A stretch of DNA of 64,000 nt from Haliscomenobacter hydrossis DSM 1100 (lineage in GTDB: Bacteria > Bacteroidota > Bacteroidia > Chitinophagales > Saprospiraceae), in assembly GCF_000212735.1 (NCBI RefSeq), contig NC_015510.1, positions 62,001-126,000 of the forward strand, in the 5' to 3' direction. A program made the position numbers and the translations under genes. Numbering within the stretch: the first letter of the stretch is position 1; each line of letters opens with the position of its first letter. Positions 2,915 through 61,420 of the stretch are shown in pieces. The notes below the pieces were generated by a model. That model made no database searches and was not told the DNA's origin. It was given only the letters and a program-made list of their open reading frames with translations.

Positions 2915-4009
2915 ATGAAGTGGTCACTTAAAATTGCAAGAGTAGCAGGTATAGATGTTTTCCTACATTGGACCTTTATTGTGTTATTGGTAGGTGTTTT
3001 GGTAGCGGGAGTTCGCACCCTGGGGCAAGAAGGTGGCTCCTTGAATGGGTTTTGGTTCATCCTTTTGCTCTTCCTGTTTGTACTTTTACACGAATTCGGT
3101 CATGCCTTAATGGGAAAAAGGTTCGGCGTAAAAACCAATCACATTACCCTTTTGCCGATCGGAGGGGTAGCCGCAATGGAACACATTCCTGAAAAGCCCT
3201 GGCAAGAAATGCTCATCGCTTTGGCTGGGCCGGCGGTTAATTTTGTACTGGCCATCGGTTTCCTCATTTTTTTGGGTTTAAGTGGCCATATTCCTGCTTT
3301 TTCGGATTGGTGGAGCCCGGTTAGCAATGACAATATGGTGTACAGTCTTTTTACCACCAACGTCATGCTGTTTTCTTTCAACCTCATCCCAGCCTTTCCC
3401 ATGGACGGAGGGCGGGTGCTGCGCGCTTTATTGGCCATGAAGTATGGCCGTTACAAAGCCACGAATATCGCCGTACGCATCGGCCAGCTCCTGGCCATTG
3501 GCCTGATCCTATTTGGACTGAGTGGCAATATCTGGCTGGTTTTTATCGGGGTATTCATCTATTTAGGGGCGGGTGCTGAGGGCAATTACGAATCAACCCG
3601 ATCGGCCCTATCCAAATATAAGGTGCAAGACGCCATCATGCACCATTTTACACCATTACAAAGTACCGATACCATTGGCATGGCCGTACGCCTGTTGCTG
3701 GATGGACAAGAAAAGGAATTTGTGGTGCTTGAAAATCAAACCGTGGTAGGAACCCTGACCCGCAACGAAATGATTGAAGGTTTGGGGCATTTTGGCAAAG
3801 AAGCCGCCTTGAGTGAGGTGATGAAAAAAGTGATCCTGAACCTGGAACCTCAGATGCCACTGGATGATGTATATGACCAGATGACCGATGAGAATGTAGA
3901 AATTGCACCTGTTTTTGAGAATAAAAAATTGATCGGGGTGTTAAACCGCGACAACATCATGGAACTGCTGATCATTGATAACGCTCAACCGCATTTGCGG
4001 TTGAGTTGA
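2915..4009 (+). CDS. site-2 protease family zinc metalloprotease (M50) with CBS pair
   Basis: A 364-residue polytopic membrane protein of the M50 intramembrane protease family (Rip3-like subgroup). The zinc motif HEFGH lies in the second membrane segment (FVLLHEFGHALMGKRFG), and the second metal-binding region is MDGGRVLRALLAM after AFP. These are the expected catalytic elements, so it should be active. The C-terminal part (about 215-360) holds two CBS-like repeats (VQDAIMHHFTPL; LSEVMKKVILNL), which in this family bind adenine nucleotides and may gate the protease. The substrate is unknown; such enzymes often cleave membrane-bound regulators. The last codons lie inside a 10-bp hairpin (3984-4005) and the stop codon inside the following 32-bp palindrome arm. 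Confidence 0.93.
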   Translation: MKWSLKIARVAGIDVFLHWTFIVLLVGVLVAGVRTLGQEGGSLNGFWFILLLFLFVLLHEFGHALMGKRFGVKTNHITLLPIGGVAAMEHIPEKPWQEMLIALAGPAVNFVLAIGFLIFLGLSGHIPAFSDWWSPVSNDNMVYSLFTTNVMLFSFNLIPAFPMDGGRVLRALLAMKYGRYKATNIAVRIGQLLAIGLILFGLSGNIWLVFIGVFIYLGAGAEGNYESTRSALSKYKVQDAIMHHFTPLQSTDTIGMAVRLLLDGQEKEFVVLENQTVVGTLTRNEMIEGLGHFGKEAALSEVMKKVILNLEPQMPLDDVYDQMTDENVEIAPVFENKKLIGVLNRDNIMELLIIDNAQPHLRLS

Positions 4010-4098
4010 ATAGTTTAGGGTTGAAGAGTTGAAAAGAAAGGCACCTCGACTCCGCTCGGTGGCCGCCTTTTCAACTCTTCAACCCTAAACTATTCAAC
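4005..4098. repeat. perfect 32-bp palindrome between convergent genes (32-30-32)
   Basis: The left arm (4005-4036, begins GTTGAATAGTTTAGGG) and right arm (4067-4098) are perfect reverse complements separated by 30 nt. The loop contains CTCGACTCCGCTCGGTG. The arms contain or touch both stop codons of the flanking convergent genes. It probably works as a bidirectional terminator. It shares arm template and loop core with the element at 12035-12128. Confidence 0.9.
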
Positions 4099-5084
4099 TA
4101 TCCTTTCACGTACATCACTTCTTTCACCGCTTTAATTACCTTGCTTGGGTTGGGCATAAACTCATCCACCAAAGTAGAGGCATAGGGCAATGAAGTATCG
4201 GCTGAGCTTACCCGCACAACTGGTGCATCGAGGTAATCAAAAGCAAGTCTTTGTACCGTGTAGGCTACTTCTGAAGATACACTGGCAAATGGCCAGGCTT
4301 CGTCCACGATGATACAACGATTGGTTTTTTTAACCGAATTGATGATGGTTTCAACATCGAGTGGGCGAATGGTGCGCAAATCGATCACTTCAGCGGAAAT
4401 GCCCTCTTTGGCCAATTCTACCGCAGCATCCAGGGCCACCAGCGTCATTTTATTATAGGATACCAGGGTAACATCCTTTCCTTCCCGACGTACTGCTGCT
4501 TTACCAATAGGTACGATGTATTCCCCTTCAGGCACGGGTCCTTTGTGGCCGTACATGATTTCAGATTCCATCATACAAACCGGGTTATTGTCACGGATAG
4601 CCGCTTTGAGCAAACCCTTGGCGTCAGCCGGATCAATACAAGAAATAACCTTCAATCCGGGAACATTGGCCATCCAGCTCTCAAAAGTCTGGGAGTGTTG
4701 TTGCGCCAATTGACCAGCAGCCCCAGAAGGCCCACGGAATACAATGGGGCAATTGAATTGGCCAGCTGATTGAGAAAGGGTTTTAGCGGCATTGTTTACG
4801 ATTTGGTCAAAAGCCAAAATGGCAAAGTTCCAGGTCATAAATTCAATTACCGGGCGCAAACCATTCATGGCCGCGCCAACACCAATACCTGCGAAACCCA
4901 GCTCGGCAATGGGCGTATCGATTACCCTTCTGGCCCCGAATTCGTCCAATAAACCTTTGCTCACTTTATAAGCACCATCGTATTGGGCAACTTCTTCTCC
5001 CATCAGGAAAACAGTGTCATCCCGACGCATTTCTTCGATCAGCGCTTCACGGAGTGCATCGCGAAGCGTTAGTTCTCTACTCAT
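4098..5084 (-). CDS. pdhB: pyruvate dehydrogenase E1 component subunit beta
   Basis: A 328-residue protein, the usual length for the beta subunit of heterotetrameric branched-type 2-oxo acid dehydrogenase E1. It has the transketolase pyrimidine-binding region ([38 protein letters not shown]) and the C-terminal transketolase domain ([25 protein letters not shown]). With the alpha subunit and ThDP it decarboxylates pyruvate and transfers the acetyl group to E2 lipoyl groups. The alpha subunit is not adjacent, as is common in Bacteroidota. The stop codon lies at the edge of the 32-bp palindrome. It is divergent from the small lipoprotein/mnmD unit. Pyruvate specificity is inferred from similarity to annotated Bacteroidota PdhB. 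Confidence 0.93.
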
Positions 5085-5169
5085 ACGCAGATTTTATAAT
5101 TTTTATCGATTAACCCAAACGAGCTTAGAGCTTATTTAAGTTGGGCGCAGCAAAAATAGAAAAAATCTT

Positions 5170-5177
5170 TACTTTTG
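5170..5177 (+). promoter_or_regulatory. Bacteroidota -7 box (TACTTTTG)
   Basis: TACTTTTG matches the Bacteroidota -7 consensus TAnnTTTG, 77 nt before the small lipoprotein ATG at 5254. No good TTTG -33 box is visible at the usual spacing. It probably drives the small lipoprotein/mnmD pair. Confidence 0.55.
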
Positions 5178-5253
5178 CATCGAAAAGCAAAGCTCTATAA
5201 TAAAACCATATGGCCTTGCGTTTGTTTGGACAAATTGTAAATCCTTTGAAGAT

Positions 5254-5412
5254 ATGAAAAGCCAAATCAAAAAATCTCAGCACACTTTGTTGGCCTGTGC
5301 AGTGCTCGTGTTGTGTTTTTCCTGCAACCGAGGCTATGGTTGCCCAACCAACTTCTCATTTACCGACTTGATTACCGAGGCCATCAAAACGGTTTTCTCC
5401 TTGTTTTTTTAA
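5254..5412 (+). CDS. small lipoprotein, 52 aa
   Basis: The reading frame starts ATG at 5254 and stops at 5410-5412. The 52-residue product begins MKSQIKKSQHTLLACAVLVL and continues into CFSCNRGYGC, giving a signal peptide with an LCFSC lipobox, so the mature protein would be only about 29 residues. The mature part ends in a hydrophobic/amphipathic tail (FTDLITEAIKTVFSLFF). A TAnnTTTG promoter lies upstream and mnmD begins 19 bp downstream on the same strand, so the two are probably co-transcribed. I do not recognise a family. The clean lipoprotein signal and the tight spacing argue that it is a real gene. Its function is unknown. Confidence 0.65.
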   Translation: MKSQIKKSQHTLLACAVLVLCFSCNRGYGCPTNFSFTDLITEAIKTVFSLFF

Positions 5413-5431
5413 GCGATAGTACTACATACCA

Positions 5432-6115
5432 ATGAGCGACGGCGCTGACGAAAACGAAATCTTCGTAACACAAGATGGTTCACACTCTATTACTGCTGCA
5501 AAATTTGGGGTAAGTTACCACTCCCGATACGGTGCAATTACCGAGTCACGTCATGTATTCATCGAGGCAGGTTTGTACCCGCTGTTGGTGAATACACCCG
5601 CTGAATTGTCTATTTTAGAAATAGGTTTGGGCACAGGACTGAACGTACTGCTTACCTACCATGAATTGGACAAACGCCCCATTACGGTGTATTACGAAGC
5701 GCTCGAAGGTTTTCCCATATCTCCGGCTATTGCCCAAAACCTCAACTACCCTAGCCTCATTGAAGGACCACGATTACAAGCTGTGTTTCAACAACTACAC
5801 GAAGGAGAATGGAACAAACCCATTGCCCTATCTCCTCATTTTCAGGTGTTGAAACGTTTGGGTCAGTTGGAAGAGCAATCCTTTTCTCCTGTTTTTGACT
5901 TGATTTATTTCGATGCTTTTGCCCCCAGTGCTCAGCCAGAGTTGTGGGGCGAAGAAATTATGCAGAAAATGTATGCTGCACTAAAGCCCGGAGGAGTTTT
6001 GGTTACCTATTGCGCAAAAGGAGAATTTAAACGCACTTTGAAAAAAGTGGGCTTCACCGTGGAACGGTTACCGGGGCCACCAGGAAAAAGAGAAATGACC
6101 AAAGCTGTAAAATAA
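5432..6115 (+). CDS. mnmD: tRNA U34 methyltransferase MnmD
   Basis: A 227-residue stand-alone version of the methyltransferase half of MnmC (DUF752/MTase30 family). It uses SAM to methylate nm5(s2)U to mnm5(s2)U at the wobble position of certain tRNAs. Diagnostic features are the N-terminal GSHSITAAKFGVSYHSRYGA block, the SAM-binding loop ILEIGLGTGLNVLLT, and FDLIYFDAFAPSAQPELW with the D-A-F-A-P catalytic segment, followed by YCAKGEFKRTLKKVGF. No FAD oxidase domain is fused, as usual in Bacteroidota and Gram-positives. The stop is immediately followed by the palindromic repeat at 6114. Confidence 0.93.
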   Translation: MSDGADENEIFVTQDGSHSITAAKFGVSYHSRYGAITESRHVFIEAGLYPLLVNTPAELSILEIGLGTGLNVLLTYHELDKRPITVYYEALEGFPISPAIAQNLNYPSLIEGPRLQAVFQQLHEGEWNKPIALSPHFQVLKRLGQLEEQSFSPVFDLIYFDAFAPSAQPELWGEEIMQKMYAALKPGGVLVTYCAKGEFKRTLKKVGFTVERLPGPPGKREMTKAVK

Positions 6116-6214
6116 TGTGCTGATGGGCTAATGTGCTGATTTGCTAATGGATAGCGTGCAAAAGCCTGAGTTTGGCACATTAACCCATTAGCACATTAAC
6201 TCATCAGCACATTA
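6114..6214. repeat. imperfect palindrome of TGTGCTGATG/TGCTAATG words
   Basis: The left part consists of reiterated AATGTGCTGATG and TGCTAATG words. The right part is the approximate reverse complement (ATTAGCACATT, CATCAGCACATT). It sits between convergent mnmD and the AP2 gene. The central core GCGTGCAAAAGCCTGAG reappears, inverted, in the element at 8989-9103. Likely a bidirectional terminator. Confidence 0.8.
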
Positions 6215-6217
6215 ATT

Positions 6218-6859
6218 TTATTGGCTGGCATTTTTAGGTTTCCGGCCGCGTTTGGATTTTATGCCGGTGTTGGGCACCTCAATGACTTGTGACAAATCAA
6301 TGGGTGTCTCTTCCTCTCCTTTTCTTGATGACTTGATGGCATTGAGTTTGCCATCGTCTCCATAGAGTTTTCGCGACATTTTGTTGTAGGCCATTGCTGC
6401 TTCCTCAGCAGTTGCAAACATGCCAATGTGAACCGATTTTCGGTTTACAGAAATGACCGCCCGATAGCGGTTGTTTTCTTTGTAAACACCCGTATATCCA
6501 ACTTTGCTGCTGGTTTTACGTTTTCGGCTGGCTACGGAACGGGATCGATAAATTAGATTTTCCATCCGGCAATCTAATTTATTGCCATTTTTGGCACCCA
6601 CTAAATTCTTATCACCGCCTTTGGTATCCACCAAGAATTTTTCTGCAATCAGCTTGTGCAGATAAATGGTTTCGGTCTTGTATCCTCCATCAGCTTTTTT
6701 CCAGGTTTTCTGGAAAACTGCACATCCGCTGGAGTGCCGTCGGAGATTGTTGATGAAATCTACCTTGGTTAAGTAAGGGTCGGTGGTCAGAAACTCGTAG
6801 ATTTTGTCATCCAATAGGACGGACTCCTCTGCGTTTTTCAGTTTAACTTTGTAAAGCAC
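6218..6859 (-). CDS. AP2-domain DNA-binding protein with degenerate HNH and AT-hook
   Basis: A 213-residue protein starting with GTG. Residues about 67-103 (LHKLIAEKF ... NGNKLDCRMENLIYRS) align by eye with the HNH endonuclease fold found in HNH-AP2 homing endonucleases. However, the usual VNHxDGN segment reads VGAKNGN, so the catalytic His is missing. Residues about 121-173 (GYTGVYKENNRYRAVI ... FATAEEAAMAYNKMSRKLYG) are an AP2 DNA-binding domain. Residues 203-209 (KRGRKPK) form a typical AT-hook. The simplest reading is a domesticated, probably non-cleaving DNA-binding protein. It is convergent with mnmD. The target and role are unknown. Confidence 0.78.
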   Translation of the reverse strand: MLYKVKLKNAEESVLLDDKIYEFLTTDPYLTKVDFINNLRRHSSGCAVFQKTWKKADGGYKTETIYLHKLIAEKFLVDTKGGDKNLVGAKNGNKLDCRMENLIYRSRSVASRKRKTSSKVGYTGVYKENNRYRAVISVNRKSVHIGMFATAEEAAMAYNKMSRKLYGDDGKLNAIKSSRKGEEETPIDLSQVIEVPNTGIKSKRGRKPKNASQ

Positions 6860-7166
6860 GCTCTCAAAATTTTAGTTATTCAAAATAAAGGCAAAGAATG
6901 GTAAACCTGTTTCCTTCAAGGGATTACACACTTATCGCATTGATGTTGCACGGCACGAGGGTTTGGGGAAGTAAGCAAGTTTATTACTGGTCCTTGAGGT
7001 AAATTTTTGATCTAATCAATCCAAGAGCTGGTTCTCTTTGTTCAGTGGGCTGGATTTTACAGCACTAAAGATAAAAAAATTCAAAAAATGAATAACATTT
7101 ATTCAACAATATTTAGGTAATAAGCATATTTTTCTTTGTCTTACGGTAGCATAATCGGTAAAAAAT
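6860..7166. other. intergenic region between divergent AP2 gene and ribD
   Basis: AT-rich, with no supportable ORF or RNA gene. I looked for an FMN (RFN) riboswitch before ribD and saw none of its conserved elements. It presumably holds both divergent promoters, but I find no clean TAnnTTTG box. Confidence 0.5.
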
Positions 7167-8222
7167 ATGGTAAAAGACATAAACCGCTACATTACAAGGT
7201 GCTTCGATTTGGCGCGAATGGGGGCAGGATCGGTATCTCCAAACCCTATGGTGGGCGCAGTTTTAGTGTATGACAACAAAATAATTGGGGAAGGTTATCA
7301 CCAAAAATATGGTGGCGCTCATGCTGAAGTCAATGCGCTCGCTTCTGTCTCCTTATCGAATCGCCCATTGATTCCTGAATCTACCCTCTATGTTTCGTTG
7401 GAACCCTGTTGCATTTTTGGAAAAACTCCACCTTGTACCAACTTGATCATTCAGGAAAAAATCCCCCGCGTGGTCATCTCCTGTTTGGACCTTACACCAG
7501 AGGTGAAAGGCCGTGGCGTTGAACTTTTACGTGCTCACGGTATCGAAGTAACCACTGGAGTTTTGGAAAAAGAAGGACAAGCACTGGCCGCGACCCGCAA
7601 TGTTTCTGTCAGCCAGCAAAGGCCCTATGTCATCCTCAAAATGGCCATCACCAGCAATGGCTATTTTGCTCCACTGGATCGCAGTCAATTTTGGATTACA
7701 CAAACACTTACCAAACGTTTGGTTCACCGCTGGCGGATGGAATCAGACGCAATATTAGTGGGCACCACGACCGCTTTGATGGATGACCCCCAGTTGGATA
7801 ATCGCCTCTATTATGGTAAATCTCCGCTGCGCATCGTGCTCGATCGCAGGCTGCAATTGCCAAACAGCCTGAAGGTATTCAGCGATGGGCAACCCACCTT
7901 AATCATTACCGAGCGTGAAAAATCCATTAACAGTGCTTCCCATTTGCATTACTTGTCCATGAATTTTGGGGAAACATTTTGGCCCGATTTATTGGCTATC
8001 TTGTGGCGGGAATACAAACTTGGCGTGATTTTGGTCGAAGGTGGCCAAAAAGTGTTGAGTAGTTTAATCGATACCGGACTATGGGACGAAGCAAGGGTGC
8101 TGATTGGTCAAAAATCCCTTACTGTAGGCATCCCCTCGCCTACCCTGCCCGGATCTCCGGAAAAAAATCTCAAACTGGGATTTGATGAGTTGAAAATTTA
8201 TCAGCATGTCCAAAGAAGTTAA
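7167..8222 (+). CDS. ribD: bifunctional riboflavin biosynthesis deaminase/reductase RibD
   Basis: A 351-residue two-domain enzyme. The N-terminal cytidine-deaminase-like domain carries the zinc/catalytic motif HAEVNAL (H52, E54) and PCCIFGKTPPC (C81, C90). It deaminates 2,5-diamino-6-ribosylamino-pyrimidinone 5'-phosphate. The C-terminal DHFR-like reductase domain (from about residue 150: RPYVILKMAITSNGYF, ESDAILVGTTTALMDDPQL, VILVEGG) then reduces the ribose to ribityl using NADPH. Both domains look complete. No other riboflavin genes are adjacent, so the pathway is dispersed. The opposing gene is divergent. Confidence 0.95.
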   Translation: MVKDINRYITRCFDLARMGAGSVSPNPMVGAVLVYDNKIIGEGYHQKYGGAHAEVNALASVSLSNRPLIPESTLYVSLEPCCIFGKTPPCTNLIIQEKIPRVVISCLDLTPEVKGRGVELLRAHGIEVTTGVLEKEGQALAATRNVSVSQQRPYVILKMAITSNGYFAPLDRSQFWITQTLTKRLVHRWRMESDAILVGTTTALMDDPQLDNRLYYGKSPLRIVLDRRLQLPNSLKVFSDGQPTLIITEREKSINSASHLHYLSMNFGETFWPDLLAILWREYKLGVILVEGGQKVLSSLIDTGLWDEARVLIGQKSLTVGIPSPTLPGSPEKNLKLGFDELKIYQHVQRS

Positions 8223-8321
8223 ACTTGCTTTAAAATTGTCACTTTAAACGATAATTTTGGTGACTTGGCTGTTTTAAGGGAGTCTTTTAATTCAGTAGAT
8301 GTGTGGGTTGCCAACATTTAC

Positions 8322-8329
8322 TACTTTTG
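8322..8329 (+). promoter_or_regulatory. Bacteroidota -7 box (TACTTTTG) that fixes the thioredoxin start
   Basis: TACTTTTG matches TAnnTTTG. It lies downstream of a possible upstream start codon (8299) and 26 nt before ATG 8356, so the later start is the one compatible with this promoter. Confidence 0.5.
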
Positions 8330-8355
8330 TATTGCAAAATCAAATACTGTCAGAA

Positions 8356-8988
8356 ATGAGCAGATTGGGTGCGTGTTTGGCCATTTTTTTACTGATTGGC
8401 TTAAATGTAACGGAATCAATAGCCCAGGAAAACCTCTTGGGTAAGAAAGGAACTACACCTAAATCAGGGGTGACTGCGAAAGGAATTACACCCCGTACGC
8501 CAAGCCGTAGTCAGGCCACTACGGTGAATTGGGTGACTTGGGATGAGGCTATCGAACTCAATAAAAAAGAGAAGAAAAAAATCCTCCTGGATGTATTCAC
8601 CTACTGGTGTGGATGGTGCAAAAAAATGGATGCTGAAACCTTTACCAATCCATATCTGATCAAATACCTCAACGATAACTATTACCTGGTTAAGTTTGAT
8701 GCAGAATCCAAAGAAACACTAGCGTATAAAGGTAAGGAATTCCGCTACGTGCGCACCTCCAAGGGCGGGCACCACGAATTGGCGGAAGAGTTCCTGCGGG
8801 GTCACCTGAGTTTTCCTTCATTGGTGTTTTTGGATGAAAACCTGGAAGTCATCCAACCCATTCCAGGATACCGCGATGCCGAAGAGCTCCTGATGATTTC
8901 CTCTTACTTTGGATCGGGTAAGTACAAAGAAACCCCCTGGTCGATTTTCCAAAAGGATTTTAAAATTCCGGAGGGCTTTAAAAGATAA
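8356..8988 (+). CDS. secreted thioredoxin-fold protein
   Basis: Start 8356 gives a normal signal peptide (MSRLGACLAIFLLIGLNV, cleavage near SIAQ-EN). An earlier in-frame start at 8299 lies before the promoter box and would spoil the signal. The mature protein has a low-complexity Thr/Lys/Ser linker, then a thioredoxin fold with the redox motif YWCGWCKKMDAETF (CxxC = CGWC) and SFPSLVFLDENLEVI including the cis-Pro region. It resembles DUF255/thioredoxin_7-like periplasmic thiol proteins. It probably handles disulfides outside the cytoplasm; the partner is unknown. The stop is followed directly by the palindrome at 8989. Confidence 0.88.
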   Translation: MSRLGACLAIFLLIGLNVTESIAQENLLGKKGTTPKSGVTAKGITPRTPSRSQATTVNWVTWDEAIELNKKEKKKILLDVFTYWCGWCKKMDAETFTNPYLIKYLNDNYYLVKFDAESKETLAYKGKEFRYVRTSKGGHHELAEEFLRGHLSFPSLVFLDENLEVIQPIPGYRDAEELLMISSYFGSGKYKETPWSIFQKDFKIPEGFKR

Positions 8989-9103
8989 AATGTGCTGATG
9001 TGCTGATGGGTTAATGTGCTGATGTGCTAATGTGGAGTGCACTAAACTTAGTGTTTTGCACGCTCTAAATCAGCACATTAGCACATCAACACATTAGCAG
9101 ATT
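8989..9103. repeat. imperfect palindrome of TGTGCTGATG words between convergent genes
   Basis: AATGTGCTGATG/TGTGCTAATG words on the left mirror CAGCACATTAGCACATC words on the right. The centre (GTGCACTAAACTTAGTG... TTTTGCACGCT) is the inverse of the centre of the element at 6114-6214. It abuts the thioredoxin stop and includes part of the glucosaminidase stop codon. Confidence 0.8.
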
Positions 9104-9965
9104 ATTTATCGTACTGGTCTAACTTGAGGTTCCGAATAATTCGAATCAACTTCTGAGCATACGTTTTATCAGTTGCATATCCTGCCTGTTTCAGGCCATA
9201 GGCCCAACTTTTATAGTCCTTGCCAAATTTTTGCAAATGTTGATATCGAGGGCTTCGCAAGAGAATAGAATGTTCTTCATAACTTTCCCATACTGAATTG
9301 AATACGCGAAACATATCGTATACATCGTCATCGGTGTAATTCCGGCAAGTGCAGCCGCGGCATTTGCGCCGACATTTGATGCCAAAATGGTTGTTTGACT
9401 CTCTGGCCAACTTGCTTCCTCCTGCATTGGATTCCAATAGCCCCTGAGCCAAAGTGATGCTGGCGGGTATACCATAATTATTCATGGCCCGAATGGCTGC
9501 CGGAGCATATTTTTCGATATAATCCTGAAGCACTTGTTGTTTTTCGGCAAAATTACTGCTGCCCCCTCCTTTGCGTTCCACGTAATCCGGGCTCAATGCT
9601 GGGGTCAAATTGGATACACTAAAAGTAGGCTCTTTGCTTTTTTCAGCTGCAGGAACTGTGCTGGATTTGGGCAAACTTTTTTTCACCAATTGGCTGATGT
9701 TGATCGCCGGAACAAATACGGCTTGCTGGGTATTGGGGGCATTCCCCAAACTTGTTCGGGTGGAAACTGGTGTTGAAGCGTATTTTTTTGCTCCATCTCT
9801 TTCCATATTTATTTGCAAGCTGAGATCCCTTTGAAACAAAAGATGGCCCGCAAGGTAAAGCAAAATGGCATTAAACCAGTTCCGGTTAATCCATTCAATC
9901 AATTGGTTTACAGATGAAACCAAGGAAAAATCGGTGGGAGTGTTACGGGTATATGTTGGCTTCAT
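9102..9965 (-). CDS. membrane-anchored glucosaminidase-family peptidoglycan hydrolase
   Basis: A 287-residue protein from ATG 9965; a longer frame to 10010 adds a hydrophobic stretch that looks non-coding. One N-terminal membrane segment (FNAILLYLAGHLLFQ) precedes a linker and a C-terminal mannosyl-glycoprotein endo-beta-N-acetylglucosaminidase (FlgJ/LytG) domain: YIEKYAPAAIRAMNNYGIPA, TLAQGLLESNAGGSKLA with the catalytic Glu in LLESNAG, NHFGIKC, SYEEHSILL and SWAYGLKQAGYATDKTYA. An inserted Cys cluster (CRRKCRGCTC) follows the NHFGIKC motif, and its four cysteines after that motif suggest a metal or disulfide knob. It probably trims glycan strands of the cell wall. Confidence 0.88.
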   Translation of the reverse strand: MKPTYTRNTPTDFSLVSSVNQLIEWINRNWFNAILLYLAGHLLFQRDLSLQINMERDGAKKYASTPVSTRTSLGNAPNTQQAVFVPAINISQLVKKSLPKSSTVPAAEKSKEPTFSVSNLTPALSPDYVERKGGGSSNFAEKQQVLQDYIEKYAPAAIRAMNNYGIPASITLAQGLLESNAGGSKLARESNNHFGIKCRRKCRGCTCRNYTDDDVYDMFRVFNSVWESYEEHSILLRSPRYQHLQKFGKDYKSWAYGLKQAGYATDKTYAQKLIRIIRNLKLDQYDK

Positions 9966-10136
9966 GACAATAAAAGTTTTTGTTACCACAAATATAAAAC
10001 AAAAAATCAAACAAACAAAAAATCTAAAAACTTTTTGTTTTTCAAAAAGCTTGTCCTTTTTTTTACTTAGTGTAGTTATTACACTACCTTTACCTTGTAT
10101 TCATTCAAAAACAGTCTCTAAATAGCTCTGACACCT

Positions 10137-10995
10137 ATGATCATTGTAGCCGACAGTGGATCGACCAAGACCGATTGGATGCTTTTAACCGATGAAGGGG
10201 CATTATTGGCTGCATACCATGGGTTTTAATCCCCTCTACCACAGCGAAGAACTTATCTACGATAAAAGCAAGGAAGAACTGGACAAGCACCAGGTGGATT
10301 TAACAGCGGTCTCTGCCATGTACTATTATGGTACCGCAGTTTGGGATCATGCCAAAGCAGAAAAAATCGCCCGTGCCTTGCGTCGCTTATTCCCCAACGC
10401 CCACGTCGAAGTAGAGCATGACTTATTGGCAGCAGCGCGTTCCACCTGTGGGCGAGACCCCGGTATTGCCTGCATCATCGGCACAGGATCAAATACTTGT
10501 CTTTTTGATGGCAAAGCAGTAACCGACAACGTGACCAATTTGGGCTATTTTGTTGGCGACGAAGGCAGTGGTGCCCATTTGGGCAAAGCCTTGATCCGGG
10601 CTTATTTCTACCGTGAACTTCCACCCGACCTGGTGACAGCGTTGGAGGAGCAAATTCCCGGCGGGAAAGACGAAATTTTGGACAATGTTTACAGCAAGCC
10701 ACAACCAAATGTATACCTCGCTTCATTCACCAAATTTTTGGGCGAGTATAGAAACCATTTTTTTATCCAGAAGCTTATTTACCAATCTTTTGCGGAATTC
10801 ATCGACCGCAATGTGCGCAAGTATCCCGGCCACCTTTCGATGCCCGTCCATTTTATTGGGTCGGTAGCTTATTACTTTCAGGATATTGTAAAAATTATTC
10901 TGGAAGAGCGCGGAATGCAACCGGGAGTATTTATCTTGAAGCCCATTGATAATTTGGTGCAATTCCATAAAGCCCATGCAGAGCCCGCGACCTGA
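10137..10995 (+). pseudogene. N-acetylglucosamine kinase-like (BadF family), +1 frameshift at TTT TAA
   Basis: ATG 10137 opens MIIVADSGSTKTDWMLLTDE, the phosphate-binding start of BadF/BcrA ATPases annotated as GlcNAc kinases. After 30 codons the frame stops at GGG TTT TAA (10221-10229). Moving +1 at the T4 run continues directly as NPLYHSEELIYDKSKEELDK. This restores the family's GFNP motif, and the rest of the domain is intact (CIIGTGSNTCLFDG, GYFVGDEGSGAHLGK, FIGSVAYYF). So either one T was inserted (mutation or sequencing error) or the ribosome shifts +1 on TTT-T. An internal start at 10192 would lack the phosphate loop. Substrate is inferred from family; the protein would act before glycolysis, next to pfkA. 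Confidence 0.8.
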
Positions 10996-11040
10996 TTCGA
11001 GGGCTTTTCCGTGGGATAACCCAACAAGTAGCTACAAGAG

Positions 11041-12027
11041 ATGAAAACAGACATTAAACGCATTGCCGTATTCACCTCGGGAGGAGATGCTCCGGGAATG
11101 AACGCGGCTATCCGTGCAGTGGTACGTACCGCCTCTTTCCACGACTTACACGTATACGGCATTTCCCGTGGGTATGAAGGCATGATTGATGGCGATTTTA
11201 AACGTTTGGAACGCAAAGACGTTGCCAACATCATTCACCGTGGGGGAACTGTTCTTAAAACGGCCCGCAGTAAGCGATTCATGACGCCCGAAGGACGCAA
11301 AACCGCATATGAATCGCTGAAGGCATTTGACATTGATGCTTGTATTGCCATTGGTGGAAACGGAACGTTTACAGGTGCAAATATTTTTGCCCAGGAACAC
11401 CCCATTCCCATCATCGGCTTACCGGGCACCATCGACAACGACCTTTTTGGTACCGATTATACCATTGGTTTTGATACTGCTGTAAACACTGCCATCGACG
11501 CAGTGGATAAAATCCGCGATACAGCCGACTCCCATGACCGGGTCTTTTTTGTAGAAGTTATGGGCCGTCACGCGGGATACATTGCACTACATACTGGTAT
11601 TGCCAGTGGCGCCGAAAGTGTGGTTACCCCCGAAATAGATACCACCATTGAAGATGTGGTGGGGGTATTGCAGCGCAGTGCCAAACGCAAAAAATTGTTT
11701 AGTTTGATCATCGTTGCTGAAGGTAGTCGTTTGGGCAATGCCAACGAGATTGCCGCCAAGGTGAACGAGCGCTTACCGGGTGTTTTCGACATTCGGGTAG
11801 CCGTGATCGGACACTTACAACGGGGCGGAGCACCCAGCCACCTCGACCGCATGTTGGCCAGCCGCATGGGGCACGCAGCTGTAGAAGGCCTTGTTGAAGG
11901 AAAAGCGGACGTCATGGCGGGAATCGTCAACGATGAAATCGTGTATACACCATTTTACGACGCCATTTTTACTGAAAAAACGATCAACAATCAGTTGATC
12001 AAGATGGCCGGGATTTTGGCCATGTAG
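11041..12027 (+). CDS. pfkA: 6-phosphofructokinase
   Basis: A 328-residue enzyme of the bacterial ATP-PFK type that phosphorylates fructose 6-phosphate to the 1,6-bisphosphate. It has the nucleotide loop TSGGDAPGMNAAIR, catalytic PGTIDND (base Asp in TIDND), VEVMGRHAGY and GHLQRGGAPSHLDRMLASRMG. The usual GGDG motif, whose Asp (E. coli D103) binds Mg-ATP, reads GGNG here (N107, from codon AAC), an uncommon substitution. All other active-site elements look intact. It is co-directional with the GlcNAc-kinase-like gene 45 bp upstream and may share its transcript. The stop is followed by the 12035 palindrome. Confidence 0.94.
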   Translation: MKTDIKRIAVFTSGGDAPGMNAAIRAVVRTASFHDLHVYGISRGYEGMIDGDFKRLERKDVANIIHRGGTVLKTARSKRFMTPEGRKTAYESLKAFDIDACIAIGGNGTFTGANIFAQEHPIPIIGLPGTIDNDLFGTDYTIGFDTAVNTAIDAVDKIRDTADSHDRVFFVEVMGRHAGYIALHTGIASGAESVVTPEIDTTIEDVVGVLQRSAKRKKLFSLIIVAEGSRLGNANEIAAKVNERLPGVFDIRVAVIGHLQRGGAPSHLDRMLASRMGHAAVEGLVEGKADVMAGIVNDEIVYTPFYDAIFTEKTINNQLIKMAGILAM

Positions 12028-12034
12028 GGTTTTA

Positions 12035-12128
12035 GTTGAAAAGTTTAGGGTTGAAAAGTTGAAAAGAAGGCACTCCGACTCCGCTCGGTGACTGTTCTTT
12101 TCAACTTTTCAACCCTAAACTTTCCAAC
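12035..12128. repeat. 32-30-32 palindrome, sister of 4005-4098
   Basis: The left arm (12035-12066, begins GTTGAAAAGTTTAGGG) and right arm (12097-12128) pair with one mismatch across a 30-nt loop containing GACTCCGCTCGGTGAC. The geometry is identical to 4005-4098, with sequence changes mirrored in both arms. The right arm encodes the last residues of the convergent gene ending at 12101. Confidence 0.88.
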
Positions 12129-13030
12129 TCTTTTCGCCACAAAAACCAGGGCAACAAAAAGTGCGGAAAGCGGATTAGCAATTCGTGGATCCACATTTGC
12201 CACCAATTCTCAAAAAAATCAATACTGAAATAGCTCCATACCCGAGCCAATGAGGTCAGTAATCCCCACAGAATCAGGTAAGCAAAGATTGCGGTCTTGA
12301 AGCGCCCAGGCCATATTACACCCAATGCGGCCAAAATATCCAGGATGCCAATACTAAACAAAAACATTTTCGCCGCATCCTCGGCAATACCCAATGAGCG
12401 CATGGTCATTTCGATAAAATTCCCGGGTACCGGGTAATAACCTATAGCATACAACCCGTGTCCGATGAATGTAGCGGAGATGGCTGTCCGGGTGGCGTAA
12501 CGAATCCATTTTTCGGGGATTGAACCTTTGCTGCTGGCGGCCAAAAGTAAGGGCGTTGCCCATTGCAGGGAGTACTCCAACAACTGCCCAATTTGCCAAC
12601 TGTATTCTTTCCAGGCAATCAAGGCCAAGAGGAACAAAGCACAACCCGAAACATTCAATATCCCCCGTGCCAGGCGTGGAAACCAATGTATACCTACGGC
12701 AGCCAAAGCACTGATGACATAAAACCAGCCTATTCCTTGCGTAAAGATTTGAATTCGTTCGTCGTACAGGGGGTTGCTCACGTATTCCGACCAACTCAAT
12801 CCCAATATTTGGGCAACAATGTCCTTCATCCAATACTCATCCCAAAGCAACTCGCGATAAGGTGCATCCCAAAAAATATGCTGCCAGGCCCGCCCCAAAA
12901 GTAGCCCAACCGCCGCTGTCTGTAAAAGTTGAAAGCTTGAAAAGTTGAAAAGTTGAAAAGTTCGGTAGCGCAAGGTTTGGGTTTTTAGACTGTAAAGGTA
13001 CGGAGAACCTTTCAACTCTAAACTTTTCAA
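12101..13030 (-). CDS. polytopic membrane protein, DoxX-like, with repeat-derived ends
   Basis: A 309-residue hydrophobic protein with about seven membrane segments (LLLGRAWQHIFW, FYVISALAAVGI, ALFLLALIAW, FLFSIGILDILAALGVIWPG, AYLILWGLLTSLARVWSYF). It resembles DoxX-like/unknown Bacteroidota membrane proteins; no enzymatic motif is seen. The N-terminal stretch RYRTFQLFNFSSFQLLQ is a translation of the TTTTCAACTTTTCAA words of the repeat at 12928-13041. The C-terminal ELESLGLKS is encoded by a palindrome arm. The true start may therefore lie inside the gene and the repeat may have extended it. Function unknown. Confidence 0.75.
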   Translation of the reverse strand: MKSLELKGSPYLYSLKTQTLRYRTFQLFNFSSFQLLQTAAVGLLLGRAWQHIFWDAPYRELLWDEYWMKDIVAQILGLSWSEYVSNPLYDERIQIFTQGIGWFYVISALAAVGIHWFPRLARGILNVSGCALFLLALIAWKEYSWQIGQLLEYSLQWATPLLLAASSKGSIPEKWIRYATRTAISATFIGHGLYAIGYYPVPGNFIEMTMRSLGIAEDAAKMFLFSIGILDILAALGVIWPGRFKTAIFAYLILWGLLTSLARVWSYFSIDFFENWWQMWIHELLIRFPHFLLPWFLWRKELESLGLKS

Positions 13031-13041
13031 CCCTTCAACTT
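12928..13041. repeat. degenerate palindrome of GTTGAAAAGTT words overlapping a gene start
   Basis: 12928-12962 carries GTTGAAAGCTTGAAAAGTTG-type words and 13006-13041 carries the complementary AACTTTTCAACCCTTCAAC words. The centre contains GGTAGCGCAAGG, also present in the element at 61365. It overlaps the predicted 5' end of the gene on the minus strand. Confidence 0.75.
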
Positions 13042-16652: not shown

Positions 16653-17273
16653 CTATCCTCCCGATAATCTACGTTTAAGGCGTTCCAAAATTCGATGTAC
16701 TTTAACCTTCGCATTGTTCTCCGTCATGCCGAGGATTTCGGCAATCTCTTTGAACGACCTTTGCTCAAAAAAGCGCATTTCAATCAGTTGCATATCGTCG
16801 GTTTTCAGGTTTTCCAGTGCCCCCATCATTTTGCGGCGCAACAACTCCTGTTCTTCGGGATCCGATCCGATTTCATCAATCAAATCGTGCAAATGCAGGT
16901 CGTTTACACTGACCACCCGATTGCTTTGTTGTTGCCGAAAATGCTGGCTTACCTCATTTACGGCAATGCGAAACAGCCATGCCGAAAAGGGCACCCCCTG
17001 AAAGGTGTAGGTACTAATCTTTTGGAGCGCTTTGAGAAAAACTTGCGAACAAAGGTCGCCGGAGAGTTCCATATCGGTCGTGCGCCGATGGATCAGTCGA
17101 AAAACGGACTCATAGTAACGTTCATACAACGGACGGAACAGTGCCGGGTTGCCCTGGGCTGCGCGAATTTCCTCCCACTCTTGGTGTAATGCAGACTCCG
17201 AAACAGTCTTAGCAGACCGATCCATCCATTCATTTTTTGCAAGGGTACGACTAATTTGCAAATTTGCGAACAT
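16653..17273 (-). CDS. ECF-family RNA polymerase sigma factor
   Basis: A 206-residue sigma-70 family protein. Region 2 (FRPLYERYYESVFRLIHRRT, DLCSQVFLKALQKI, FSAWLFRIAVNEV) is linked to region 4 (MQLIEMRFFEQRSFKEIAEI, LGMTENNAKVKVHRILERLK), a helix-turn-helix for -35 recognition. M17 (MDRSAKT) is an alternative start. It is followed on the same strand by the putative anti-sigma membrane protein. It presumably responds to an envelope signal relayed by that protein; the regulon is unknown. Confidence 0.92.
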   Translation of the reverse strand: MFANLQISRTLAKNEWMDRSAKTVSESALHQEWEEIRAAQGNPALFRPLYERYYESVFRLIHRRTTDMELSGDLCSQVFLKALQKISTYTFQGVPFSAWLFRIAVNEVSQHFRQQQSNRVVSVNDLHLHDLIDEIGSDPEEQELLRRKMMGALENLKTDDMQLIEMRFFEQRSFKEIAEILGMTENNAKVKVHRILERLKRRLSGG

Positions 17274-17340: not shown

Positions 17341-17445
17341 AGTGACGAATTATTCGAATGACGAATGACAAATTACCTCGCATTGCCTCTAAGTTTTGAG
17401 TAGCGCTCCCCAATTCGTCATTCGTCATTCGAAAAATTCGTCACT
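17341..17445. repeat. 34-bp-arm palindrome of GACGAAT words
   Basis: The left arm 17341-17374 (AGTGACGAATTATTCG..., ATGACGAATGACAAATT) pairs with 17412-17445 with two mismatches across 37 nt. It overlaps the last codons and stop of the DUF4403 gene. Probably its terminator; the same word set recurs at 56514-56617. Confidence 0.82.
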
Positions 17446-38587: not shown

Positions 38588-39639
38588 TGCTTAAAAATCC
38601 AACCCCACGGCAGATAGCCATTGCTTCCGCAGCATTGATTACCGCAGTGGGCGTGCTCATCTTTTTGATGGTGCGTTTTTTGCGCTGGGACGCTTATCCC
38701 TGGCTGGAATATTTGACCTGGGTACTCATCTTCTTCATCCTCACCTATCGCGTGGTTTTGTTTTTTTTGCAAAATTACATTTACCGCAAAATCAAACTCA
38801 TTTACAAAACCATTCACCAGGAAAAAATCAACCCCGCTGAAAAAAACAAAACCATCAACGCCGACGCGAAAATATTTGAGGAAGTAGGCGAACAAGTTGC
38901 CGCCTGGGCGGCCAATCAACAGAAAGAAATTGACCAATTGCGCTCATGGAGTGAGTACCGCCGGGCATTTTTGGGCGATATTTCGCATGAGCTTAAAACC
39001 CCCATTTTCAACATTCAGGGGTATATCGAATCTTTGATCGATAGTGGAGTTGAAGATCCCGTCTTCAGCCTGTCTTTTTTGAAAAAAGCCGCCAAAAACG
39101 TCGATCGCCTGCAAACCATCATTCAGGATCTGGAGACCATTTCCAAGCTGGAAACGGGCAATATGCTGCTGGAAATCACCAGTTTTGACATCCGCGAGCT
39201 GGGCAAAGAAGTATTTGAAGAACTGGAAATCAAGGCCGCCGAACGCAACATTTCCCTTGATTTTAAAGAAGGTGCCAATCAAAATTTCCGGGTGAAAGCC
39301 GATCGGGAAAAAATTCGTCAAGTGCTGATCAACCTCGTCCACAACTCCATCAAATACGGCATTCCCAACGGGCGCATCAAATTTGCCTTTTACGACATGG
39401 ACAAACGGGTCTTGATCGAAGTAGCCGACAATGGCATCGGCATCCCCAAAGAGCACCTTGCCCACGTTTTTGACCGTTTCTACCGCGTGGACAAAAGCAG
39501 ATCGCGCACCCAGGGCGGTTCGGGTTTGGGTTTGTCCATCGTCAAACACATCATCGAAGCCCACGCACAAACCATCAATGTGCGCTCTACACCCAATTTG
39601 GGCTCTACTTTTGGGTTTACACTGGATAAAGCAGGTTGA
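38587..39639 (+). CDS. sensor histidine kinase (PhoR-like)
   Basis: A 350-residue kinase with two membrane helices (IAIASAALITAVGVLIFLMV; LEYLTWVLIFFILTYRVVLF) separated by only a short loop. No large periplasmic sensor is present, so sensing may be in the membrane. The H-box FLGDISHELKTPIFNIQGYI, N-box VLINLVHNSIKYG, G1 VADNGIGIP, F-box FDRFYRVDKSRSR and G2 GGSGLGLSIVK are all intact. It is co-translated with the regulator upstream. The stop lies in the 46-bp palindrome arm. Confidence 0.94.
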   Translation: MLKNPTPRQIAIASAALITAVGVLIFLMVRFLRWDAYPWLEYLTWVLIFFILTYRVVLFFLQNYIYRKIKLIYKTIHQEKINPAEKNKTINADAKIFEEVGEQVAAWAANQQKEIDQLRSWSEYRRAFLGDISHELKTPIFNIQGYIESLIDSGVEDPVFSLSFLKKAAKNVDRLQTIIQDLETISKLETGNMLLEITSFDIRELGKEVFEELEIKAAERNISLDFKEGANQNFRVKADREKIRQVLINLVHNSIKYGIPNGRIKFAFYDMDKRVLIEVADNGIGIPKEHLAHVFDRFYRVDKSRSRTQGGSGLGLSIVKHIIEAHAQTINVRSTPNLGSTFGFTLDKAG

Positions 39640-39759
39640 GAAAGTTGAGAAAGTTTAGGAGGTTTAGGCTACCGCAAGCGGCTTTGCACCTCGGCTCCGC
39701 TCGATGACCGAGTCGCTTGCGGTAGCCTAAACTTTCTCAACCTCCTAAACTTTCTCAAC
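39635..39759. repeat. 46-33-46 palindrome with shared CTCCGCTCG loop core
   Basis: The left arm 39635-39680 and right arm 39714-39759 pair perfectly in the inner 19 bases (CTACCGCAAGCG and flank). The outer halves use the same TTTCTCAA and CCTCCTAAAC words in a partly different order. The loop carries GCACCTCGGCTCCGCTCG then TGACCGAG. Closely related to 57823-57937. Confidence 0.88.
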
Positions 39760-41787: not shown

Positions 41788-41881
41788 CTGAGGTGATTCT
41801 CTGGTGTCTTAGGTTTCTTAGGTGGTGAAAAACGCTCTCTTCACCACCTAAGAAACCTAAGACACCAGAGAATCACCTCAG
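41788..41881. terminator. perfect 42-bp inverted repeat with 10-nt loop
   Basis: The arm 41788-41829 (CTGAGGTGATTCTCTGGTGT...) and arm 41840-41881 are perfect reverse complements, with only 10 nt between them. The arms contain the word pair CTTAGGTTTCTTAGG. It lies between two convergent genes and is a very strong candidate bidirectional terminator. It is the longest perfect stem found in the window. Confidence 0.88.
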
Positions 41882-45738: not shown

Positions 45739-46263
45739 TTTACCAGATTTTGGCTGCGATATGATGGTGGAAAGTACCATGTACTACTATACATTTTGCT
45801 TGGAGGACATGAATTGCCACGTGCTTGGACGTCAATGAAAAACCCTGGTTTGGGCATTAGTGTCAATTGGTTCCGGTTTCAACCCCGAAGGGGTGACAGG
45901 ATTATAGCAAAATAACCGTGTTTATTTCATGAAGAGAAACCCCGAAGGGGTGGCATTATGAAATAAAACGGCGAGGGTACGGTCAAATAATGTCACCCCT
46001 TCAGGGTTCAAATACATCGTCATGTCATTTTTGCTATAATCCTGTCACCCCTTCGGGGTTGGTAGACCTCAGCACAATCCTATGCTGGATGCACCATTTC
46101 AGGTCTTCCGAGCAAAATGTCAAGTAGCGAGGGAAAATACTCATTCCACAAGTGATTTAAAAACAAACCAAAAAAAATATTTAGAATGGATTGCATCCTT
46201 GGGGCTTATTGGACATTGACCAGATTCTTGCTATCTTCACCGCAAGACCAAAAAGCTAAAACA
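45739..46263. other. 525-bp divergent intergenic region
   Basis: Lies between the minus-strand fusion dehydrogenase and the plus-strand STAND gene. It contains the nested palindrome at 45881-46060. Before the STAND gene, TTGG followed 19 nt later by TATCTTCA (46232-46239) is a possible weak promoter. No gene is seen. Confidence 0.5.
45881..46060. repeat. nested palindrome of AACCCCGAAGGGGTGACA units
   Basis: The outer arms 45881-45912 and 46029-46060 are perfect 32-bp reverse complements (AACCCCGAAGGGGTGACAGG... ). Inside lies a second, imperfect pair of the same unit (about 45939-45958 and 45990-46008). Each unit is itself palindromic (ACCCC-GAA-GGGGT). Unlike the other elements it lies between divergent genes, so is not simply a terminator. 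Confidence 0.9.
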
Positions 46264-48735: not shown

Positions 48736-49096
48736 AGTGCCCAATAAGCGATCTGCAGCTTGTTTTACCAGCTCACATTACGCAGTCTGTGTAAGGTCGA
48801 GCGTTATTCATACATAATTTTTTGACGCAGCTTCGCTGCTTGTTTTTCACCACGACGGGACGACGATACGACGATAGCTACCGCTACAACCCGACGCCAT
48901 GCGTCGTGTCCTTTGAGCGCGAAGCGCGCAAAAACGTCGTGTCGTCGTTCCGTCGTGTCGTCGTGGTGAAAAAGATTTGGCGTAGTCGAATCAAAAAAAA
49001 CCGTTGCGTTTATTCGCATACCAGGCTCTGCAATATCACGACCACGTAATGTGAGTTACCAGAACATCGCTTTAGGCACGTAATGGTGCTTTATGC
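48736..49096. other. 361-bp intergenic region with a CGTCGT-word palindrome
   Basis: Between convergent STAND and acyl-CoA dehydrogenase genes. The arms 48843-48873 (TTTTTCACCACGACGGGACG...) and 48935-48973 (…CGTCGTCGTGGTGAAAAA) are complementary over the outer 15 bp and use repeated GACGACGATACGACG words inside. The centre holds smaller hairpins (GACGCCATGCGTC; GCGCGAAGCGCGC). No gene is seen. Confidence 0.75.
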
Positions 49097-54635: not shown

Positions 54636-55925
54636 ATGGCGGAAATTAGCGAAAAACACGACCTCGCAAGCTATTTGGAATTGCTGGAGGCCAAGCTCAA
54701 CTGGGGTTCTAGCCAATACTGGGTCAATTACGACTTTGAAAAGCTGAGCCAGGAAATTGAACACAAAACCGGCGTCACACTGAGCGTCACTACCCTCAAA
54801 CGCATCTGGGGCAAAGTCAAATATCCACATGCCCCCACTCTGACCACTTTAAACACCCTGGCGCAATACCTGGATTATGATGATTGGCGAGCCTTTACAC
54901 AAGCCCTGAAGCTGCGTGCTCAAAACCTTGAACGATCCGAAGTGGCTCAGAATGCCGAGCTGCCGCTGCCGGAGAAACGCCGGACTTGGCTAAAAAGACC
55001 CTGGCTGTTGCTTGCCGTTCTGTTGCTGCTGACCATTTTTGCCGTATCTCCGGTTGTCCCCGATTTTTTTGCATTTAAAGTCGATCAGCATCAATACCAG
55101 TTCAAGGCCAATAAAATTGTCGCGGAAGGAGTACCCAATACGGTAATTTTCAACTACGACGCCAGCGCTTCCCCAACGGATTCGGTCTACATCGTACAAA
55201 CCTGGGATATGCGCCGAAAAACGCGGGTACCCAAAGACAAACACGCCCACTCGGCCATCTATTATTACCCCGGCTTTTTTCGTACAAAGCTCATCGTTGG
55301 CAATTCCATTGTAAAAACCCACGACCTACAGATCAGTTCCGACGGCTGGTTGGCTTTGGTTGAACAGGAACCTGTACCAATCTACTTCAAAAAAGAAGAC
55401 TACCTCAAGGCTGATGGCGTTGACATTGGTACAACTACTTTAAAAAAATACAACCTGGCTTTGCTTCCCAATCCGCCTAAAATTCGCGTGTTCAATCAAG
55501 GAGATATGGGCGAGCTGATGAACGACAATTTCACGTTTGAAACGACGGTTAAAAATGCATTCAGCGAGGGCAGCAATGCTTGCCAATTCGTGGAAGTGTT
55601 GATCCAGTGCAAAGACGACATCATCATCATTCCCCTGGCGGACAAAGCTTGTGCGGGTGATCTGCGCATCTACGCCGCCGGAGCGCCGGCAGAAAGCAAA
55701 TATGCCGATTTATCGGGCTTTGGTTGTGACCTAAATGAGTGGACTACTCTAAAAGTGGTGACCAAAGACAAAAAAATGAGTTTTTATGTCAATGGAAAAA
55801 AAGCACATTCCCTTACTTTTCCCAATACGCCCACGGGCATTGTGGGGGTACAGTATCGGTTCAATGGGCTGGGTGCGGTGAAAGATGCGAAGTTTAGCCA
55901 TGGTGATTTCGAGGTAAAGCTGTAA
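54636..55925 (+). CDS. membrane-anchored HTH-like protein with LamG-like outer domain
   Basis: A 429-residue protein. Residues 1-95 are cytoplasmic and helical, with an HTH-like segment (YDFEKLSQEIEHKTGVTLS, VTTLKRIWGKVKYPHAPTLT, TLNTLAQYLDYDDW) known at the N-terminus of many Bacteroidota proteins. Residues about 122-141 are a membrane span (PWLLLAVLLLLTIFAVSPVV). The outer part includes a beta-sandwich resembling LamG/concanavalin folds near the C-terminus (DNFTFETTVKNAFSEG, LNEWTTLKVVTKDKKMSFYV, NGKKAHSLTF). This layout would suit a one-component ToxR-like regulator with an outer ligand-binding domain. DNA binding is not proven. Confidence 0.82.
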   Translation: MAEISEKHDLASYLELLEAKLNWGSSQYWVNYDFEKLSQEIEHKTGVTLSVTTLKRIWGKVKYPHAPTLTTLNTLAQYLDYDDWRAFTQALKLRAQNLERSEVAQNAELPLPEKRRTWLKRPWLLLAVLLLLTIFAVSPVVPDFFAFKVDQHQYQFKANKIVAEGVPNTVIFNYDASASPTDSVYIVQTWDMRRKTRVPKDKHAHSAIYYYPGFFRTKLIVGNSIVKTHDLQISSDGWLALVEQEPVPIYFKKEDYLKADGVDIGTTTLKKYNLALLPNPPKIRVFNQGDMGELMNDNFTFETTVKNAFSEGSNACQFVEVLIQCKDDIIIIPLADKACAGDLRIYAAGAPAESKYADLSGFGCDLNEWTTLKVVTKDKKMSFYVNGKKAHSLTFPNTPTGIVGVQYRFNGLGAVKDAKFSHGDFEVKL

Positions 55926-56515: not shown

Positions 56516-56617
56516 ATGACGAATAACGAGTGACGAATGACGAATTTGGTGTTCCACATCGTAAAATTTTCATCATTGCCGACAAATTCGTCATTCGTCA
56601 CTCGTTATTCGTCATTT
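56514..56617. repeat. perfect 35-34-35 palindrome of GACGAAT words
   Basis: The left arm 56514-56548 (AAATGACGAATAACGAGTGA...) and right arm 56583-56617 are perfect reverse complements around a 34-nt loop. They use the same words as 17341-17445. It separates two co-directional genes and ends 12 bp before the next promoter box. Confidence 0.9.
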
Positions 56618-61365: not shown

Positions 61366-61420
61366 TTGAAGAGTTTAGGGTTGAAGAGTTGAAAAGTAAG
61401 GGTAGCGCAAGGTTATGATA

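Follow-up and report, generated by a model that had tools for sequence, protein, structure and literature searches.

Gene-end word palindromes dispersed in the genome of Haliscomenobacter hydrossis, and possible DNA-level copying between their arms

The 64,000-nucleotide stretch of the genome of the sludge bacterium Haliscomenobacter hydrossis DSM 1100 analysed here (the window, C1:62001-126000, within the first contig of 8,371,686 bases in a genome of 8,771,651 bases) contains palindromes whose arms are arrays of short words, and which are called word palindromes below. The data showed that tandem words make up most of the longer arms, that the two arms of an element are coupled, that vocabularies and loops are replaced from one sister species to the next, and that the elements mostly lie near stop codons. 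The reading that we prefer, and to which we give about an even chance of being right, is that gene-end word palindromes are a dispersed class whose arms are kept matched by copying at the DNA level.

The original prediction, made from the letters of the window, described stem–loops at two loci, and both are present. The palindrome at 4004-4099 has a 33-bp stem with no mismatch (33/33 complementary) and a 30-nt loop with the core CACCTCGACTCCGCTCGGTG, and the two convergent genes on either side, which encode an M50 peptidase/CBS protein (2915-4009, + strand) and a transketolase-like protein (4098-5084, − strand), both have their stop codons within or at the border of its arms. The palindrome at 12034-12129, which is flanked by a phosphofructokinase gene (11041-12027, +) and an open reading frame (12101-13030, −), has 35-nt arms with 34/35 positions paired and a 26-nt loop, or, with an alternative cut, 32-nt arms and a 30-nt loop. 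As had been noticed, a change that distinguishes the arms of the two loci is accompanied by its mirror image in the opposite arm. The changes lie at position 7 (T/A) and position 22 (G/A) of the 32-nt arm, and one G in the right arm of the second palindrome is left unmatched. A third element, made of the same type of word, has its left arm at 61365-61396 (+) and its right arm at 62406-62437 (−), and the arms are split by an insertion sequence (IS; 61421-62359, +), which has 19-bp terminal inverted repeats, with ends read by eye, a 7-bp repeat TATGATA on each side (61414-61420 and 62360-62366), and a DDE transposase (61506-62345; Pfam DDE_Tnp_1_3). The co-variation ascribed to these arms was not observed: the two disagree at 4 of 32 positions (28/32 matching, or 88% over 34 nt), which means that this pair has drifted apart, and it is the most poorly paired of the three elements.

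The identical 32-30-32 geometry, which had been proposed as a trait of the family, did not hold: of 132 elements surveyed in 864 kb, only 1 combines 31-34-nt arms with a loop of exactly 30 nt. The arm sequence GTTGAANAGTTTAGGG has 37 exact matches in the genome, compared with 0 for the reversed control, and the best inverted partner is located at 15-109 nt in 36/37 of them; among these 36 partners, two have scores of no more than 6 and 10. The 37th match is the IS-split copy, with no partner within reach. A fixed geometry is ruled out by these partner distances and by the survey of arms and loops in the 132 elements.

To determine the size of the class, ungapped stems with a score of at least 18 and a span of up to 200 were scanned for. 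The window has 11 such stem–loops, and the 464 kb made up of the window and three further stretches have 74, compared with 0 in a first-order Markov control with one sequence per stretch of the same 464 kb. The addition of 400 kb gave the 132 elements in 864 kb of the host genome, and the genome total would be about 1,300 elements if this sample holds. The proposal of a dispersed palindromic family, rather than of unrelated terminators, is thus supported by 132 elements with many vocabularies, and the family is far larger than was thought. The mean arm is 33 nt long, and the loop has a median of 27 nt and a range of 0-144 nt; arms range from 19 to 57 nt among the 74 elements in 464 kb. Among 118 arms of at least 24 nt, 73 contain a word repeated in tandem at a period of 7-10, with 8 the commonest, compared with 13 of 333 control intergenic stretches. 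When sorted by word, in a scheme of our own, the elements fall into 12 groups, with 16/132 left unsorted. Several elements have a REP-like core (CTCGRCTCCGCTCGGTG), resembling repetitive extragenic palindromic (REP) sequences, or an inner GCTACCGC stem in the loop. At C1:3630971-3631216, about 31 GGTTCGNN words, all on one strand, form a direct array with no reverse match nearby in the pattern list; slippage in one arm may have produced it.

The elements are located between genes, as called by a home-made caller using a hexamer score. None of the 132 is centred in a called gene, and a single one is located past the final gene called in its stretch; with a looser cut-off and all genomes pooled, 3/230 elements lie inside genes. 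Convergent junctions are enriched (38 observed versus 19.6 expected by intergenic length, p=3.7e-5), divergent junctions are depleted (13 versus 32.0, p=3.8e-5), and tandem junctions are neutral (80 versus 79.4). In the 464-kb sample, the outer edge lies within 50 nt of the stop codon of the gene ending there in 68 of 92 distances. Two other candidate rules were tried. Arrays of stop codons, suggested by the many stops in the first arms when read inward and counted in the 74 elements as 157 inward and 81 outward versus 131.4 expected from shuffles, were dropped as a general explanation because several vocabularies have few or no stops. A replichore bias of the word arrays was not apparent either, as the GC skew is weak and no clear rule was seen in the sampled stretches.

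To analyze whether the arms change together, 29 elements were chosen by one arm (GTTGAANAGTTTAGGG) only, so that they were not selected for pairing. Their unconstrained half-arm matched its own partner with a score of 12.4 and the partners of other elements with 10.5 (permutation p=2e-4, n=29). Two further families, GTTGAGG and CTAAGG, were found in sister genomes by similarity to a window element. Of 20 GTTGAGG copies fetched by hand, 19 distinct ones were kept, as L321 and L325 are one element on two contig ends; L327 and L333 also have long stretches in common, yet both were kept, as they belong to separate genomes. The identity of arms in the GTTGAGG family was 0.934 within elements versus 0.875 between elements, and was higher within in 18/19 (p=1e-4), and in the CTAAGG family it was 0.884 versus 0.864 (14/18, p=0.003). 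The 19 GTTGAGG copies were aligned with the element of the window (alignment A2, 20 elements). Changes on both sides of a pair occupied 31 cells, compared with 15.1 in shuffles, and the covariation score was 0.174, compared with 0.110; each of these values was reached in 0/500 shuffles. At pair 14/81 of this alignment, G-C (13 sequences) is replaced by T-A (6 sequences), with one sequence unpaired, which is a step that no G·U intermediate could bridge. The counts from an earlier alignment, A1 (12 pairs, 0/500), are superseded by A2, as one element had been included twice. The orientation of loops within A1 and A2, where both orientations are present, was set aside as evidence, because a palindrome read from the opposite strand flips its loop, and only orthologous junctions count. 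The coupling of arms is real, but partial: the predicted co-change is element-specific in three families, while it is weak in CTAAGG, and the arms of the IS-split copy have drifted.

One alternative, which we regard as unlikely, is that the stems are selected as RNA, serving as bidirectional terminators or protectors of mRNA 3′ ends, and that the arm changes are ordinary compensatory substitutions. In an RNA-selected stem the remaining mismatches should favour G·U over A·C on the transcribed strand. The data showed no such excess in 80 tandem-junction elements of the host genome, with 65 G·U versus 66 A·C. The ratio was 85:78 for all genomes, 98:103 or 54:54 at other cut-offs, and 58:41 (p=0.11) in an earlier, smaller sample of 464 kb and four congeners. 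Thirty-two short T-run terminators of the host genome gave 26:9 (p=0.006), which differs from the elements (Fisher p=0.012). A U-tract is also rare, as at least 7 T in 12 positions at the 3′ foot were found in only 4/80 tandem-junction elements, and neither feature of intrinsic terminators, a U-tract after the stem or the tolerance of G·U over A·C, characterizes the elements. Mirrored changes without wobble intermediates are indicated indirectly, in pairs that are barely more numerous than in shuffles. The lack of a G·U excess and the rarity of U-tracts favour arm copying at the DNA level over selection of an RNA stem. Selection for RNA would agree with the gene-end position, the convergent enrichment and divergent depletion, with the folding energies of −61.1 and −52.9 kcal/mol predicted for the RNA of the 4004 and 12034 elements, and with the more frequent presence of an element in a sister when the host has one (24/51 versus 6/49, see below). 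On the other hand, the position bias equally follows from selection against insertion in promoters, and several sister junctions are cleanly empty. The stems may still be used as RNA, as the missing wobble signal could have been erased by fast arm copying, but a process at the DNA level is favoured. Of the two causes named in the original prediction, arm-to-arm copying fits better and selection for the stem fits less well.

To compare the elements between species, four congeners, all draft genomes, were used: G001, G002 and G004, with about 90% residue identity to the host in one tested protein, and G003 with 65%. From four stretches of 20-25 kb, 60 junctions of 25-700 bases were taken, of which 43 were located in one or more of G001, G002 and G004, giving 100 comparisons. 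A sister had an element (score at least 17) in 24/51 comparisons where the host has one, versus 6/49 where the host has none (Fisher p=1.7e-4, for comparisons that are not independent). Many sister junctions retain some palindrome while vocabularies and loops turn over. In the 24 comparisons with an element on both sides, the arms have at least two common six-mers in 11 cases and none or one in 13. At 4004 a GTTGA-type palindrome stands in all four species, but its arms and its loop differ among them, and between fixed flanks the G001 loop is inverted relative to the G004 loop. A second inverted loop, at A 97316 in G002, was seen by eye and is unscored. The junction at 17341 has GACGAAT words in the host and G001, TGAAAA-type words in G002, and ATGATGA-type words in G004. 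The junction B 59445 is empty in G001 and G002, as is A 91038 in G004. Read by eye at B 59445 (host and G004) and at A 91038, the few sites covered, no target duplication was apparent. Stems absent from orthologous junctions and without an insertion signature had been named beforehand as an outcome that would speak against the predicted family. This was observed in part, as several sister junctions are empty and the two filled sites compared with an empty sister show no apparent target duplication; the elements thus come and go.

The density of elements per 100 kb was 15.9 in the host (464 kb), 19.9 in G002, 19.5 in G004, 12.0 in G001 and 3.0 in G003, each in the sampled stretches. Some vocabularies are nearly species-private. 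The GGTTCG pattern (three words in register) has 416 matches in the host and 0 in each of G001-G004, and the GTTCCA pattern (three words) has 195 in G004, 11 in G002, 1 in G001, and 0 in the host and G003; such matches exceed the number of elements because they overlap within one array. Reversed-pattern controls gave 0, except for 1 and 5 in G004. GTTGA and GTTCG words occur together in arms of L005 and L020, suggesting that a vocabulary may develop from an existing one.

These patterns of presence and absence would also be expected if the palindromes were miniature elements moved by a transposase, similar to REPINs or miniature inverted-repeat transposable elements, with arms matching because the copies are young and with dialects arising as bursts. 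We consider this possibility doubtful. It is consistent with the filled and empty sister sites (B 59445, A 91038), with the many dispersed copies per family and their species-private expansions, and with the REP-like core of loops. However, independent decay predicts no excess of arm identity within a copy, and the opposite was observed in three families; target duplication was not apparent at the two sites read, and arms mixing two vocabularies exist (L005, L020). A Y1 transposase flanked by repeats (REP-associated tyrosine transposase, RAYT) is a REP trait, while no word palindrome was found within 1.5 kb of any of the seven Y1_Tnp loci of the host (0/7; other transposase types were not searched for). 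That the arm match is a by-product of vocabulary, both arms being arrays of one simple word with no arm-to-arm process, is very improbable: most long arms are indeed tandem arrays, the identity between elements of a family already reaches 0.86-0.88, and the CTAAGG coupling is weak, but this explanation is weakened by the permutation tests, which show element-specific coupling above the family level, and by perfect stems of 42 and 38 bp that consist of non-identical units, and it leaves the inverted pairing of the arrays unexplained.

In the mechanism that we propose for DNA-level copying, slippage would multiply a word in one arm, and during replication or repair the nascent strand would fold back, or switch template within the hairpin, and so copy the change into the other arm. 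Ectopic copying might then spread words across one genome, giving rise to species dialects, with elements also being lost, and the location at gene ends could reflect the removal by selection of insertions in genes and promoters. The copying events and their enzymes are inferred. The folded DNA or RNA may have a function of its own, although the pattern can be explained without one. A bolder form, which we put forward as improbable, is that the palindromes are self-templating: the spreading unit would be a single word-array arm, whose partner is rebuilt by fold-back synthesis in each round, and such satellite-like behavior would drive the species-private vocabularies.

Several observations weigh against copying between arms. 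No copying event was directly seen, and the 25/132 (19%) perfect stems are little above the 4-17% obtained at similar rates in a simulation with an even mismatch rate. The loop was inverted in just 1 of 7 scorable orthologous comparisons. An element's own partner was the best match in just 11/29 of the GTTGAANAGTTTAGGG set (ties counted), 6/18 of the CTAAGG copies and 11/19 of the GTTGAGG copies; the CTAAGG coupling is weak, and most copies of that family drift nearly freely. In alignment A2, 9/30 pairs changed on both sides, which was reached by 27/500 shuffles, and the number of pair types was reached by 57/500, in shuffles which ignore relatedness; some both-side changes near the foot are a one-base length difference in both arms. 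By our reading of the matches, GGTTCG-family arms often differ in the order of word variants. The terminator control in the wobble comparison is also small and home-made.

Correction between arms has reportedly been invoked before, as Ladoukakis and Eyre-Walker in 2008 and van Noort in 2003 are said to have explained in this way an excess of small inverted repeats in prokaryotes. That excess concerns short repeats in general, while word palindromes are dispersed word families. Template switching is described as creating and mending stems (Monttinen and Löytynoja 2022, PMC8794818). Such quasipalindrome mutation predicts perfect stems formed in one event and mirrored multi-base changes. In the parts of that paper on which we draw it is described for RNA genes, while here it would act on a genome-wide set of non-coding elements whose words change.

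Word palindromes are placed here among the dispersed intergenic palindromic repeats, as an apparently new form whose nearest relatives are REP and REPIN elements. Searches of the open-access literature, which led to REPs, REPINs, TAACTGA repeats and general surveys of inverted repeats, brought up no account of palindromes built from words that are particular to a species, subscription papers being outside this coverage. REPINs (Bertels and Rainey 2011, PMC3116915) and REPs with a GTAG or CGTC tag (PMC3733652) are likewise dispersed, intergenic, palindromic and present in many copies, mostly at convergent or co-directional junctions, and the inner loop of several word palindromes appears REP-like to us. 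REP dimers have also been reported within long palindromes, namely GTAG-15 of A. variabilis and CGTC-1 of H. neapolitanus (PMC3733652). On the other hand, stems of GTAG REPs are mostly 6-9 bp, and 12-13 bp at the longest, and often contain GT pairs, according to the sections of PMC3733652 used here, while the arms of word palindromes have 19-57 nt and no G·U excess. Unlike REPs, as these sources present them, word palindromes have arms that vary and consist of tandem words, and no common unpaired tag of the GTAG or CGTC kind was seen at one end of the 74 elements, which were compared by eye only. Hairpin pairs of GTAGCGGCGGGTTTYAACCCGCC, about 100 nt apart, that resemble classical REP doublets were observed at B 16786-16978, B 55527-55676 and A 187770-187968.

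Other repeats share single features with the word palindromes. The TAACTGA and other 7-mer repeats of Beggiatoaceae, Cyanobacteria and some Bacteroidetes (MacGregor 2015, PMC4679880) are also intergenic tandem arrays of short words with a patchy distribution over phyla. However, as described there, they are direct repeats, mostly upstream of start codons, while word palindromes are inverted pairs at gene ends; one inverted case is given among 170 sets in the BOGUAY genome (PMC4679880). Families of bacterial stem–loop sequences (Cozzuto 2008, PMC2267715) are repeated intergenic stem–loops as well, but they are defined by sequence profiles, and the abstract of that paper is silent on co-change of arms and on species vocabularies.

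Beyond the genus, the GACGAAT palindrome pattern was found in the host only, among 395 sampled Bacteroidota; the congeners were outside this sample, and G001 has such elements. A scan of the GTDB collection with the exact palindrome pattern GTTGAAAAGTT..AACTTTTCAAC gave 70 stretches from many phyla. As many single matches are hairpins of 11-12 bp, which may be due to chance, the argument is limited to genomes with several matches or with long word stems. Genomes with several matches include Verrucomicrobia UBA3761 (7 stretches) and Pseudobacter HJP_bin9 (6). Other vocabularies are used by word palindromes found in the Bacteroidetes metagenome-assembled genome (MAG) SZAS-41 (L216) and in the Verrucomicrobia MAG UBA3761 (L245, L253, L256 and L259), and word palindromes with several vocabularies are also present in other Bacteroidota.

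Compensatory change is usually taken as proof of a selected RNA stem, and here mirrored change is found without the wobble signature, which cautions that covariation alone is insufficient for calling an RNA structure. Being a large natural set, with neighbouring species as replicates, the word palindromes make selection versus arm-to-arm copying directly testable. They also suggest concerted evolution of bacterial non-coding repeats at a scale that is more familiar from eukaryotic satellites.

The window contains further palindromes, and none of its sequence matched Rfam above the gathering threshold. A CTTAGGTG-type palindrome (41788-41881) has a perfect stem of 42 bp. GACGAAT-type palindromes are located at 17341-17445, at the junction whose words in the sisters are given above, and at 56514-56617, with a 35-bp perfect stem. 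Two have a REP-like core: a GTTGAGAAAG-type palindrome (39635-39759) with the inner stem GGCTACCGCAAGCG, and a GTTGAGG-type palindrome (57832-57920), the first row of alignments A1 and A2, with a 31-bp perfect stem and the inner GGCTACCGCGAGCG. Of two TGCTAATG-type palindromes, the one at 6109-6218 has a 12-bp hairpin at its place in three sisters, and the one at 9012-9096 is matched in three sisters by hairpins of different, GTAGAGACGCACGG-like sequence. A CGACGA-type palindrome lies at 48843-48973, and a weaker GTTGAAAAG-type stem–loop (75% complementary) at 12942-13041. A different repeat (CAACCCCGAAGGGGTGACA...) at 45880-46061 has many copies in sister genomes at about 87-94% identity. Stem–loops other than word palindromes (score at least 14) lie within 1.5 kb of 5/7 Y1 loci, two of them of the CCCCGAAGGGG family, and as the CCCCGAAGGGG motif of the 45880-46061 repeat occurs near two Y1-transposase loci (L205 and L206), this repeat may form a REP/RAYT pair.

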